From positions 88,277-152,276 of the forward strand of contig JABDDN010000001.1 of assembly GCA_013287585.1 (NCBI GenBank): a stretch of 64,000 nucleotides of DNA, written 5' to 3'. The notes beneath the pieces were generated by a model. The model did no database searches and had not been told where the DNA came from. It worked only from the letters and a program-made list of their open reading frames with translations. Both the position numbers and the translations under genes were made by a program. Positions 7,795 through 13,024 of the stretch are shown one piece after another (positions within the stretch are counted from its first letter, which is position 1; each line of letters opens with the position of its first letter). This DNA comes from Nitrososphaerota archaeon (GTDB lineage Archaea; Thermoproteota; Nitrososphaeria; Nitrososphaerales; Nitrosopumilaceae).

Positions 7795-7956
7795 ATGTCA
7801 GTTGATGTTGTATGCGGAAAATGTGGTGCTAAAATTGCAAATATGCGTATGTTAAAATCTGTTAAAGAAGTTATCAGACCATACAACAATAAATGTCCTT
7901 CTTGTGGCCAAACACTTTCATCTTCTGAGTTTACAGTGGATGTACAGAAAAACTGA
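7795..7956 (+). CDS. small zinc-ribbon protein
   Basis: The 53-residue protein runs from ATG 7795 to TGA 7954-7956. It has two CxxC pairs (Cys7/Cys10 and Cys34/Cys37) around a basic central segment, a classic four-cysteine zinc ribbon. It lies in its own gap between the DUF35 gene and the HTH/ATP-cone gene. Function is unknown; nucleic-acid or protein binding is likely. It is short but has no frame interruptions and a coherent motif. Confidence 0.75.
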   Translation: MSVDVVCGKCGAKIANMRMLKSVKEVIRPYNNKCPSCGQTLSSSEFTVDVQKN

Positions 7957-7992
7957 TCAAAAATACTAGTTTAAGGATCAATTTAGTCACAA

Positions 7993-8004
7993 ATCTTATT
8001 TACC
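7993..8004 (+). promoter_or_regulatory. TATA-like 12-mer shared with the nrdJ upstream region
   Basis: The sequence atcttatttacc lies 20-31 bases before the ATG at 8024, a good TATA position for a leaderless mRNA. The identical 12-mer recurs at 10189-10200 upstream of nrdJ. It may be a core promoter element, an operator, or both overlapping. Confidence 0.5.
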
Positions 8005-8023
8005 GATACTATCTAGACATGCC

Positions 8024-10117
8024 ATGGAACTGAGTGAGGACTTTGGCGAGCAAAAGCGAGGAGGCATTTTACAATCAGCATCAAAACGTGTAAGAATGAT
8101 CTTTTCGGTAATGGCAAGCCCGAACAGGATAGATATTTTACGTATTTTAAATTCAAAAGGACCTCTTACTTATTCAGAATTAAAATCTCTTGCGGGATTT
8201 AAATCAAAAAAAGAAAGTGGTAAATTTGCATACCACTTAAGAAAACTACTAAGACAATCTCTAGTGGCTCTGAATAAATCAGAAAGACGTTACACTATTA
8301 CAAATTTAGGAAAACTAGTTCTAAGTCTTGCTAGACAAATTGAAGAACGCTCTATAATAGAGAGCGGCAAGATGTATGTCAGAACCTCACATGAGTCAAT
8401 AGAGGAGTTTAACTCACATAAGATAATCCAGTCTCTTGTACGTGAGGGTAGCCTTCCACTTGAACTTGCCCAAAAAATAACTGAAGAGGTAGAAAACCGC
8501 ATCTACAAATTCCAAACTTCATACCTTACTGCCTCATTGATACGTGAAATGGTAAATTCTGTCCTTTTAGAGCAAGGACATGAGGATTATAGGCACAAAC
8601 TTGCTAGATTTGGGCTTCCTGCATATGACATTCATGAAATGATAACAAATGTGGATGGTATTCATAATGGTGTGGAGGGTCTCCTCTTTAAGACTGGTCA
8701 AACCGTCTTTGGAGAACATCTGGTTCTAAACACACTACCAAAAGATGTTGCTGATTCACATCTTTCAGGAGATATTCATATAACAAATACTGGAATATGG
8801 TCACTTTTACCAGATACAGTATTTGTAAACATTAAGGAGCTCTTAGAAGATGGTATAGATCTTCGAGGAAAATTCCTTGGAGTAACTAGAGTGCCTCCAA
8901 TAAATACATTAGATGAACTTGCTACATCATTATCGTTACTCACTTCGTTATTGTTTAGAGAAGCATCACAGGAAGTGATAATGGATGGATTAGTAACAAT
9001 TTTGCAAAAATATTCAAAAAATCTTGGTGAAGTAGAAGAAAAGATTACAAGTGCATTTACAGCAACATCAACTGCTCCAAGATACAGTAAAAATGGTACA
9101 CTTGCTTCCTTTAGAATCTCACTTGGAAGCGATTCCAAATTAATAGGTGTAATACTTGATAGTTACAAAAAATATGTAAAATCAACACCTACTCCTTCAG
9201 TTGGTATTATAATAGACTACGAAAAAGGCAAAGTCAGCGAGTTTTCCGATATACTTTCTGAAATTATTGCATTAGGAGGGCGTGTAAGCTTTTCAAAAGG
9301 TATTATATCGAATAAAGGAATCTTGCGAGGAGATGCAAAAACCACTGGAACTACAATTAATCTTCAGTCACTTTCAATTAATATGCCTAGACTTGCATTT
9401 GAATCCAATAAAGATGAAACATACTTTAGAGCACGTCTTGCACTCTTGATGAAGCCTGCACTTGCAGCAATGTCACTTAGGAAGAAGGAAATATCAGATC
9501 TAACTAGACGTGGACTTAATCCAATTCTTGCAAATAATACCCAATACATGCAAAAGGGCTCAGTTACCTTAGTAGTTAATCTGATCGGCTTAAAGGAGGC
9601 AGTATTTGGAATACTTGGATATGAAAATAACAAGGCTGGGCAAGAAATATTCTCTAAGGTCATAGCAACAGCAATGGAAGTAGCAACCAAGAAAGGAAAA
9701 GAGATGGGTGATAATGTTACCATATCTATGACTGAAAGCGATGCGGCAGCACGATTTTCAGCCTTGGATGGAGAAAAATACGGTAAGATGTCTGTTCTTC
9801 AATACGTAGAAGGCGAATCATATTCTGAAGGAATAGTGCTAAATGCTCCAGAAATAGAAGGAATGAATCTAAAAACAGATAAAATTGTTGAGGCTAATCA
9901 CATGTCAAAAGCTCTTAATGGTGGATTGTTAGTACAACTAAAAATCCCAGATAACGCAGATGTAGCAATAATAAAAAAGGCTATAGAAAAAACAAGTGAA
10001 CTCGTAAGTTCATTCAGGCCAATACGAAAGGTGCATATTTGTAGTAACTGTGGCCTAAAGGAAGAAAAGCTTACTGACAAATGTCCTACTTGCAAATCAC
10101 CCTACATACTTGCCTAA
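8024..10117 (+). CDS. winged-helix/ATP-cone/NrdD-like protein without catalytic residues; candidate ribonucleotide reductase regulator
   Basis: The 697-residue protein has four parts. Residues about 20-105 form an ArsR-like winged helix (SPNRIDILRIL, YHLRKLL). Residues about 117-205 form an ATP-cone, the nucleotide-sensing domain of reductases and of NrdR. Residues about 225-660 follow the class III reductase NrdD fold (LPKDVADSHLSGDIHI, MPRLAFE, LVGL-like NLIGLKEA). Cys673, Cys676, Cys687 and Cys690 form a zinc ribbon. These are the only cysteines, so the active-site thiyl cysteine is missing. The chain ends just after the ribbon, so the C-terminal glycyl-radical motif is missing too. It therefore cannot be a working reductase. 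It lies directly upstream of nrdJ, co-directional, 249 bases away. A dNTP-sensing transcription regulator is the natural reading but is inference. Confidence 0.82.
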   Translation: MELSEDFGEQKRGGILQSASKRVRMIFSVMASPNRIDILRILNSKGPLTYSELKSLAGFKSKKESGKFAYHLRKLLRQSLVALNKSERRYTITNLGKLVLSLARQIEERSIIESGKMYVRTSHESIEEFNSHKIIQSLVREGSLPLELAQKITEEVENRIYKFQTSYLTASLIREMVNSVLLEQGHEDYRHKLARFGLPAYDIHEMITNVDGIHNGVEGLLFKTGQTVFGEHLVLNTLPKDVADSHLSGDIHITNTGIWSLLPDTVFVNIKELLEDGIDLRGKFLGVTRVPPINTLDELATSLSLLTSLLFREASQEVIMDGLVTILQKYSKNLGEVEEKITSAFTATSTAPRYSKNGTLASFRISLGSDSKLIGVILDSYKKYVKSTPTPSVGIIIDYEKGKVSEFSDILSEIIALGGRVSFSKGIISNKGILRGDAKTTGTTINLQSLSINMPRLAFESNKDETYFRARLALLMKPALAAMSLRKKEISDLTRRGLNPILANNTQYMQKGSVTLVVNLIGLKEAVFGILGYENNKAGQEIFSKVIATAMEVATKKGKEMGDNVTISMTESDAAARFSALDGEKYGKMSVLQYVEGESYSEGIVLNAPEIEGMNLKTDKIVEANHMSKALNGGLLVQLKIPDNADVAIIKKAIEKTSELVSSFRPIRKVHICSNCGLKEEKLTDKCPTCKSPYILA

Positions 10118-10366
10118 AATTTTCTCAAGCATTGAATAGATCTTATTAATATTTACGAATAACATTTTTTAAAAAATTGTAAAATACGATCTTATTTACC
10201 TGAAATTTAGATTAATTTTTTGAAGATTTATTTAAGTTCTATACCGATCTAAAATTATGAAAATAGTAATGGTGTCAACAAAGTTGATCCAAAGTCGATC
10301 TTTGGGAAAATATTTTTTGCCTCAATCTTTATTTAACTCCCTTTTCTTAGGTCTGCGGGGAGTCAT
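10118..10366 (+). promoter_or_regulatory. nrdJ upstream region with repeated motifs and a TATA box
   Basis: This 249-base gap holds no gene. It contains the 12-mer atcttatttacc (10189-10200) and four GATCT cores (10139, 10188, 10246 and 10297). Two adjacent small dyads lie at 10275-10305. A TATA-like tttattta is at 10328-10335, about 32-39 bases before the TTG start. A G-rich ggggag precedes the start and could serve as a ribosome-binding site. The gap is long for this compact genome, which suggests regulation. Confidence 0.55.
10275..10305. promoter_or_regulatory. two adjacent inverted repeats upstream of nrdJ
   Basis: TCAAC/GTTGA with a 3-base spacer (10275-10287) is followed by CCAAAG/CTTTGG with a 5-base spacer (10289-10305). 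Both are perfect. They lie just upstream of the likely TATA box, where a DNA-binding regulator could act; they could also fold as hairpins if the transcript starts further upstream. Confidence 0.5.
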
Positions 10367-13024
10367 TTGACAGATTTTTCACAAATAGAGAACTCGATCA
10401 TTGAAGTAAAAAAACGCGACGGTCGAGTGTTAAATTTCCAGAAGGATAAAATTTCAAACGCCGTATACAAGGCTTTAGTTGCTTGTGGTAGGCCAGAACA
10501 CAGCTTGGCTGATAAACTGGCAGATCGGGTAATGGAGAAACTTGTTAATCAAGGTTATTCTGCTACTGGTGCACCAAGCGTAGAAGACGTACAAGATATG
10601 GTTGAATCTACTCTAATAGATGAAGGACTTGGTGAAATTGCCAAAGCCTACATACTTTACAGACATGAACGAAGAAAACTTCGAGAAGAAAAAATGAAGG
10701 TTCTTGATTCCAAATCTCTTGATAGTGTAGCAAAGAAGTTTGATCTTAACTGCCTGAGAGTTTTAGCATCCAGATACTTGATGCGCAATAACAAGGGAAC
10801 AATAATTGAAAGTCCAGGCGAGATGTTTGAACGAGTAGCAATTTTGGTTGGAATTGGAGATCTACTAAAGGACTCTTCCATATTTGCGGTAGAAGGAGGA
10901 AATGCACAAAACATAGAAGAAGCTTCACGATATCTTGATAAACTTGATGATTTTGATTACAAATTCAAAATTGGCAAATATCTTCTTAACAAATGGCATT
11001 TCAGATCATTAATCATTCACTACATGGACTTGGCCAAGCGTGGCCAGATGAAAGTAGGCATGAAAGAATTTCTTACCATGCTTGCAGCAAGAAAATTTGA
11101 TCAATATGCCGAGAGAATCTCAGAATATTATGATCTGATGGTCTCACAAGATTTTCTACCAAACTCTCCTACTATGATGAATGCGGGTGGTAGACTAGGC
11201 CAGCTCTCAGCTTGCTTTGTGCTTGCCATGCCTGATGATATGGAAAAAATAATGAAATCGTCTTCAGACGCAGCATTAATTTTCAAATCTGGTGGAGGGG
11301 TAGGCATCAACTACTCTGATCTTAGAGAAGAAGGTGATATGGTAGCATCTACCTCTGGTGTCGCATCTGGTCCTGTGTCATTTATGAATATCATAAACAC
11401 AGTAACTGAAGTTGTCAAACAAGGAGGAAAACGAAGAGGTGCGAACATGGGAATTATCGAATCATGGCATCCTGATATTGAAAAATTTGTTACTGCAAAA
11501 ACAAAACCAGGTGTTTTAGAAAACTTTAACGTAAGTGTTGGAGTATGGGAAGATTTCTGGGACGCACTTGTAAATTCAAAAGATGGAAAATATACTCTTC
11601 GAAGTCCGCGTGATAACTCTCCAGTGCGAGAAATAAATGCACATCAATTGATTGATCTAATTGCACTTTCAGCTTGGAAAAGTGCTGAACCAGGTCTAAT
11701 CTTCTTTGATCTTATTAACAAATACAATGTATTTGCAAAAGCTCGAGGTGGACCAATACGAGCTACTAATCCTTGTGGAGAACAAAGTTTGTATCCATAC
11801 GAATCATGCAATTTGGGATCTATCAATCTGGCAAACTATGTTAAACGAAAAGCTGATGGACAGTATGAATTTGATTGGCAAAGATATGAAGAGACAATTC
11901 GAAAGACAACAAGATTCTTGGATAATGTTATAGATGTAAACAATTATCCAATTCCTGAAATCGATAAGGCATCAAAGGATTCACGCAGAATTGGACTTGG
12001 TGTAATGGGAGTTGCAGATCTTCTCTTTAAGCTACGAATTCCGTATAATTCGCAAGAAGGTTATGAATTCCAAGAAAAACTTGCTGAAGCATTAACTTAC
12101 TATTCTATGGAAGAAAGCGTAGCCTTGGCAAAAACACGCGGCGCGTTTCCATTATGTGAAAAAACAGAATTTCCTGAAGGAAAAATACCTGTGGCAGGAT
12201 ATTACGAAAAACCAAAGAATGGTTGCTCATACGATTGGGATGCATTAATTAGTAAAATCCAAAAGCATGGTATTAGAAACGTACTGACAACCACAGTAGC
12301 TCCTACAGGTACTCTATCAATGATTGGTGATTGCTCAAACGGAATGGAACCAATGTTTGCTTTAGCATTCGAAAAACGTGTAACTGTTGGAAGATTCTTT
12401 TATACAAACAAAATCTTTGAAGAAGTTCTCAAAGAACACGGATTGTACAATGATCAAATCCTAGAAAAAATCGCAAATAACTATGGTTCATTGAAAGGAA
12501 TTCCAGAAATTCCAGAATGGATGCAGAAAATATTTGTTACAGCAATGGACATACACTGGGCTGACCACCTTATGGCACAAGCTGTATGGCAAAAGTGGAT
12601 TGGAAATGCAATCGCAAAGACAATTAACATGCCATATGATGTAACCGCTGAAGATATCAAAGCAGCATATCTGATAGCGCATGAGCTTGGACTCAAAGGA
12701 ATCACGATATATAGAGATGGTTCAAGACATGAACAAGTCTTACACATGACTGGTGACAATGTACAAAAAACATTCCAAGTTACTCCAAGTCAGTATGTGA
12801 CAGATTACGTTGCAAAAAATGTCACAAATCCATATCTAAAAGCACAAACCGAAAAAGCGTTGCAGATAAAGATTCCAGAAACATCAGTACAATCCCCACA
12901 AGTTCCACTTACTCCCGAAGAGATGGAAGAAAGACTATGCCCAACATGCAAGAACAACTTGGTCTTTGCAGAAGGATGCAATGTCTGCATAGAATGTGGA
13001 TATAGCGGCTGTACATCAGGATAG
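10367..13024 (+). CDS. nrdJ: adenosylcobalamin-dependent (class II) ribonucleotide reductase
   Basis: The 885-residue protein (TTG start) reduces ribonucleotides to deoxyribonucleotides. It has an N-terminal ATP-cone (about 12-100), then the reductase barrel with NSPTMMNAGG and SACFVLAMPD, the GGGVGINYS loop, the NPCGEQ active-site motif with the radical cysteine and glutamate, and the APTGTLS phosphate loop. A C-terminal region has paired cysteines (CPTCKNN, CNVCIECGYSGC), as in many NrdJ proteins. The cobalamin genes at 35026-41938 fit a B12 need. The gene is preceded by a long regulatory gap and the HTH/ATP-cone protein. Confidence 0.95.
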   Translation: MTDFSQIENSIIEVKKRDGRVLNFQKDKISNAVYKALVACGRPEHSLADKLADRVMEKLVNQGYSATGAPSVEDVQDMVESTLIDEGLGEIAKAYILYRHERRKLREEKMKVLDSKSLDSVAKKFDLNCLRVLASRYLMRNNKGTIIESPGEMFERVAILVGIGDLLKDSSIFAVEGGNAQNIEEASRYLDKLDDFDYKFKIGKYLLNKWHFRSLIIHYMDLAKRGQMKVGMKEFLTMLAARKFDQYAERISEYYDLMVSQDFLPNSPTMMNAGGRLGQLSACFVLAMPDDMEKIMKSSSDAALIFKSGGGVGINYSDLREEGDMVASTSGVASGPVSFMNIINTVTEVVKQGGKRRGANMGIIESWHPDIEKFVTAKTKPGVLENFNVSVGVWEDFWDALVNSKDGKYTLRSPRDNSPVREINAHQLIDLIALSAWKSAEPGLIFFDLINKYNVFAKARGGPIRATNPCGEQSLYPYESCNLGSINLANYVKRKADGQYEFDWQRYEETIRKTTRFLDNVIDVNNYPIPEIDKASKDSRRIGLGVMGVADLLFKLRIPYNSQEGYEFQEKLAEALTYYSMEESVALAKTRGAFPLCEKTEFPEGKIPVAGYYEKPKNGCSYDWDALISKIQKHGIRNVLTTTVAPTGTLSMIGDCSNGMEPMFALAFEKRVTVGRFFYTNKIFEEVLKEHGLYNDQILEKIANNYGSLKGIPEIPEWMQKIFVTAMDIHWADHLMAQAVWQKWIGNAIAKTINMPYDVTAEDIKAAYLIAHELGLKGITIYRDGSRHEQVLHMTGDNVQKTFQVTPSQYVTDYVAKNVTNPYLKAQTEKALQIKIPETSVQSPQVPLTPEEMEERLCPTCKNNLVFAEGCNVCIECGYSGCTSG

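Follow-up and report, generated by a model that had tools for sequence, protein, structure and literature searches.

Analyzing a window of 64,000 nucleotides from the genome of a Nitrososphaerota archaeon (the whole stretch of DNA considered here), we found a gene whose product probably controls the ribonucleotide reductase (RNR) gene beside it as a DNA-binding nucleotide sensor, resembling NrdR in function though of separate origin; its DNA binding and ligand are inferred, and either sign of regulation is possible. The broader reading, which we favor with somewhat less assurance, is that of an archaeal transcription factor family born from a dead anaerobic RNR joined to a DNA-binding head, which would sense ATP/dATP, control whichever RNR fills the neighboring slot, and serve Nitrososphaeria and part of the wider Thermoproteota as a general RNR regulator, an independently derived NrdR analogue. 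To our knowledge, little is known about how dNTP supply is tuned at the gene level in archaea, among the most abundant of which are the ammonia oxidizers. The family offers a concrete, conserved candidate for such control in ammonia oxidizers, with a predicted operator, and clearly illustrates the recruitment of an essential enzyme's fold for gene regulation. It very probably controls the neighboring RNR gene and fills the place of the bacterial NrdR that these archaea are missing. We found no description of the family in the open-access literature; an earlier account in subscription papers is not excluded.

The gene is an uninterrupted frame with the following domains.

8024..10117, + strand: regulator gene, 697 aa from an ATG, with a winged helix, an ATP-cone, a catalytically dead NrdD-type barrel, and a zinc ribbon (Pfam, relatives)
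8099..8323, + strand: winged-helix domain, putatively DNA binding, residues 26-100, recognition region at 50-75 (Pfam DUF7347/HTH_20, conservation)
8372..8590, + strand: ATP-cone, residues 117-189 (Pfam, alignments)
8669..10027, + strand: dead NrdD-type region, residues ~216-668 (Pfam NRDD, Foldseek, alignments)
10040..10093, + strand: zinc ribbon C673-C676-C687-C690, with no NrdD-type glycyl-radical tail after it (sequence, alignment)

The first-pass annotation had placed a winged helix, an ATP-cone, and an NrdD-like barrel in a single chain, and all the Pfam matches lie above their curated cut-offs: DUF7347 at residues 26-100 (E 2e-10, 41.1 bits against a cut-off of 27.6), HTH_20 at 30-82 (E 7e-8, 32.7 bits against 27), ATP-cone at 117-189 (E 3e-9), and NRDD, whose best stretch covers 416-692 (E 1.7e-24, 86.8 bits against 26.2). 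ATP-cone and winged helix are therefore parts of one and the same product. It had also held that the only cysteines are those of the C-terminal zinc ribbon and that a glycyl-radical motif is missing; both are borne out by the protein, which has cysteines at 673, 676, 687, and 690 only and stops 7 residues past C690 without such a domain. Chance is excluded, because orthologues occur in hundreds of genomes. In one of these (G005:C1:1756001-1758075), a single-contig genome that is 99% complete, a TGA breaks the gene into two frames, reflecting either recent loss or a sequencing error. A short zinc-ribbon frame with CxxC pairs (7800-7955 of the window) ends directly 5' of the regulator gene, and such a frame also recurs 5' of regulator genes in many relatives.

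Expressed as mean pairwise identity over 22 relatives, conservation is strongest where a DNA-binding sensor would need it: 0.90 in the winged helix, 0.98 in its recognition region (residues 50-75), and 0.80 in the ATP-cone. The barrel scores 0.45 and 0.54, and the C-terminal stretch ahead of the zinc ribbon scores 0.36. The roof of the ATP-cone, V119-R120-T121, is conserved in the alignments together with E127 and F129, with E127 invariant among aligned relatives and K133 nearly so. Nucleotide contacts in NrdR are made by K50, R51, E56, and K62 (PMC9110341), which align with R120, T121, E127, and K133 of the regulator. Because of this correspondence, binding of ATP or dATP by the regulator's cone is plausible, but it has not been shown.

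An alignment of the window protein and 34 relatives from other families with genuine NrdDs from their phylum shows that the regulator is derived from a class III reductase (NrdD) in which no catalytic residue survives. The finger loop of genuine NrdDs carries a cysteine pair, their substrate-triphosphate site reads HIHD, and R-V/I-x-G-Y follows the zinc ribbon; the cysteine pair and glycyl motif are kept in 30 of 30 sampled from the phylum, and HIHD is present in two that were aligned. In the window protein and the 34 aligned relatives, all three features are absent: the finger-loop cysteines are replaced (by NKG in the window protein, often by TG or SG in the relatives), HIHD has become HITN (as in the window) or similar, and there is no glycyl-radical motif. 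The glycyl tail is missing altogether in Nitrososphaeria, and other classes have degenerate remnants of it (e.g., SRSSATY and YSRLFDRY) that look like decay intermediates. The NrdD equivalog model TIGR02487 (NCBIfam) is not met, at 79.6 bits against a cut-off of 326.35. Catalytic residues at the aligned positions, or relatives without linkage to RNR genes, would have refuted the first-pass proposal; no such residues were found in any relative, and the linkage is nearly universal in the order. The accompanying suggestion that the barrel perhaps reads substrate is rejected: HxHD, the motif that holds the substrate triphosphate (PMC11226230), is gone from the regulator, so substrate reading by the barrel is unlikely and sensing should fall to the ATP-cone.

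The comparison with NrdD structures proposed in the first-pass annotation points to the same ancestry. The 32 best PDB matches of the regulator's AlphaFold model are all class III NrdD (Foldseek; best E 1.9e-14, TM up to 0.62), and class II and class I reductases rank below them. The model itself is moderate (mean pLDDT 55), with many barrel blocks at 70-94 and the N-terminal 261 residues under 50, since the usable alignment hardly varies there. In a tree of 32 regulators and 32 NrdDs, the two groups fall on opposite sides of one branch (SH-aLRT 100), so that a single origin is not ruled out, and in this tree the regulators form a clade separate from the NrdDs of the same phylum with 100% support.

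Mapping the regulator within Thermoproteota (other archaeal phyla, Asgard and Euryarchaeota among them, lie outside our counts), we found it in 165 of the 169 good genomes from the class Nitrososphaeria. Matches occur in 221 of 300 genomes of the phylum, including many other Thermoproteota families, the weakest probably being only ATP-cone or NrdD cross-hits. In the window, the regulator had been described as lying directly upstream of a class II nrdJ, and Pfam identifies the next gene as exactly this.

10367..13024, + strand: nrdJ, class II RNR with its own ATP-cone, presumed target (Pfam, NCBIfam NrdJ_Z)

An RNR gene lies directly downstream of the regulator in 38 of the 39 testable genomes of the order, the exception being G018, whose regulator is diverged and unlinked; in G034 the regulator locus ends at a contig edge, and G030 has an RNR and lacks the regulator. 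Among the named regulator loci, 78 of 80 are RNR-linked and the remaining two stop at contig ends. The RNR in the slot varies, being a class II enzyme with an ATP-cone as in the window, one of three other class II kinds (five linked RNRs sampled from these gave no ATP-cone match), or, in two other-class loci, a class III NrdD. Judged from these neighborhoods, the RNR in the slot is replaced across lineages while the regulator stays. Thus, the idea of a thaumarchaeal, RNR-linked family holds for the order, where adjacency is nearly universal even when the RNR type differs, but the family is far wider, and many other classes have the regulator without an RNR neighbor: most of the 20 other-class loci sampled have no adjoining RNR gene.

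A gene of aspartate/ornithine carbamoyltransferase type, mostly convergent, recurs just past the regulator or RNR gene across classes (L203, L204-L207, L209, L212, L213, L215, L222, L223, L225, L226, L228, L229, and L231-L233) and marks an ancient shared locus. At L225:4762-8211, the linked class II RNR contains an intein bearing a LAGLIDADG domain. One metagenome-assembled genome labeled Phycisphaerales bacterium (L125) carries a Nitrosopumilaceae regulator at 70% identity and is probably mis-binned.

The regions upstream of the regulator and of nrdJ contain the following elements.

7955..7981, + strand: two GATCAA sites, 21 bp apart, 5' of the regulator gene
7986..8003, + strand: GTCACAA then CTTATTTAC, promoter of the regulator gene (function inferred; GTCACAA may simply be BRE)
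10273..10289, + strand: TGTCAACAAAGTTGATC, conserved imperfect inverted repeat, candidate operator 5' of nrdJ (motif conservation; no binding data)
10289..10305, + strand: CCAAAGTCGATCTTTGG, 6-bp inverted repeat beside the candidate operator, conserved only within the genus
10328..10336, + strand: TTTATTTAA, TATA-like box of nrdJ (conserved; function inferred)

The conserved motif in the intergenic region 10118-10366 adds support to the reading of the upstream gene as an RNR regulator, although it is assigned to the regulator by linkage and not by experiment. This 17-bp imperfect inverted repeat, TGTMAA-N5/6-TTGANC, is found upstream of nrdJ in 104 of 127 Nitrosopumilaceae-centered loci, which are related and not independent, between -69 and -121 relative to the start codon (nearly all at -83 to -98) and with a chance expectation of ~0.06 per 150 bp. 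GTCAA, the core of this element, tops the overrepresented 5-mers in 14 gaps between regulator and RNR genes in other families (21 versus 5.1 expected), where TGTCAA occurs 10 times versus 1.6 expected. GTCAA is also raised 5' of the regulator gene itself within the order (14 versus 4.9 expected). RNR genes without linkage to the regulator, either second RNR genes away from it or the one in the regulator-less genome, gave five usable cases; four have no GTCAA within 200 bp upstream, and in the fifth the copy falls inside the preceding gene. A genome-wide search with the palindrome pattern recovered the nrdJ site plus isolated single hits, none of which clearly marked a second regulon member.

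Two further patterns were given less weight. At the promoter of the regulator itself, GTCAYAA does not count as strong evidence, since it may be BRE. The upstream region of the regulator in Nitrosopumilaceae is GATC rich (18 per kb versus 2.4), with sites 10-12 and 19-22 bp apart, and in relatives up to 8 GATC sites are arrayed at intervals of roughly one or two helical turns. These phased sites show local enrichment and are a lead only, because in some species part of the enriched stretch lies within N-terminal extensions of the coding sequence; simple GATC-pair patterns are unspecific genome-wide (~5 per genome).

We infer that NrdD-type dimers would present two winged helices to short TGTCAA-type elements upstream of nrdJ and would probably also bind sites upstream of their own gene. 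Occupancy of the ATP-cone by ATP or dATP may alter dimer geometry and hence DNA binding, and such nucleotide-dependent binding would tie RNR expression to the dNTP pool. Since the candidate operator lies ~38 bp upstream of the TATA-like box, its placement fits an activator or cooperative repressor better than simple TATA blocking. The original suggestion of a class III reductase turned into a DNA-binding sensor is thus supported by the lost catalytic residues, the RNR linkage, and the motif in 10118-10366, apart from the barrel as substrate reader. Several points weigh against this regulator reading. There are no binding data, and the N-terminal half of the model is of low confidence. The roof of the ATP-cone has R-T where NrdR has K-R. 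Allostery might be enough by itself, given that the window nrdJ carries an ATP-cone of its own; whether the regulator's cone compensates for RNRs that lack one, as the five sampled linked enzymes do, is left open. Finally, the regulator has no adjacent RNR in most sampled genomes of other classes, one genome of the order has an RNR without it, and in another it is diverged and unlinked.

Adjacency in a probably co-regulated pair and an RNR-type fold would also suit a noncatalytic partner subunit of NrdJ, which would attach to the reductase through its dead barrel and ATP-cone and turn it on or off, the winged helix only helping it dimerize or bind protein; DNA binding is not shown. We nevertheless consider it unlikely: a specific interface is hard to reconcile with an RNR neighbor that swaps subfamily, even to class III NrdD, next to a constant regulator, no part of the protein is more conserved than the DNA-recognition region, and the promoter motif travels with the linkage. 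Marginally less likely again is a transcription regulator mainly of other genes, such as those of replication or pyrimidine metabolism, with an RNR adjacency that is merely inherited. The gene does often stand beside the carbamoyltransferase gene without an RNR gene in other classes, but its RNR linkage survives repeated RNR replacement, and in the genome-wide search no pattern hit other than the nrdJ element clearly recurred between genomes.

It is very improbable that the protein is still an enzyme, RNR-like or glycyl-radical, with altered chemistry. The NrdD fold and zinc ribbon are retained, but the window protein has no cysteine outside that ribbon, the glycyl motif and HxHD are gone, and the barrel is the least conserved part of the chain.

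A regulator of the adjacent RNR gene, the reading we prefer, has its closest functional counterpart in NrdR, the bacterial RNR repressor composed of a zinc ribbon and an ATP-cone (PMC9110341, PMC12176259). Both join an ATP-cone to a DNA-binding domain (DNA binding being inferred for the regulator), lie beside RNR genes, and have short inverted-repeat elements in RNR promoters. However, NrdR has its zinc ribbon at the N terminus, where the regulator has a winged helix and carries its own ribbon at the C terminus; only the regulator has a whole dead NrdD after the cone, and the two are of separate origin. The regulator gives no match to the NrdR model TIGR00244 (NCBIfam) up to E 1. With NrdD, the class III anaerobic reductase (4u3e, 4col, 1h7a, 8p2s), it shares the fold, ATP-cone, and C-terminal zinc ribbon, but it lacks the finger-loop cysteines, glycyl-radical domain, and HxHD and has the extra winged helix. 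It shares this N-terminal fold with ArsR/SmtB-type regulators (HTH_20, HTH_5), from which it differs in having no identified metal site and in being fused to RNR domains; the ArsR metalloregulator model NF033788 is not met (23.3 versus 55 bits).

NrdR is rare in archaea (PMC9110341). With TIGR00244, no NrdR above the cut-off was found in the class, including genome G000, and 22 of 300 genomes of the phylum have one, all in a single family. True NrdR lies beside NrdD in G268, G280, G292, G307, G322, G337, and G211 (family f25); these seven genomes also carry the winged-helix regulator and so have two RNR regulators each. Small open reading frames of ~95-115 codons in G224, G270, G407, G405, and others align with the NrdR model over its ATP-cone part alone and are possibly free-standing ATP-cone proteins in several Thermoproteota.
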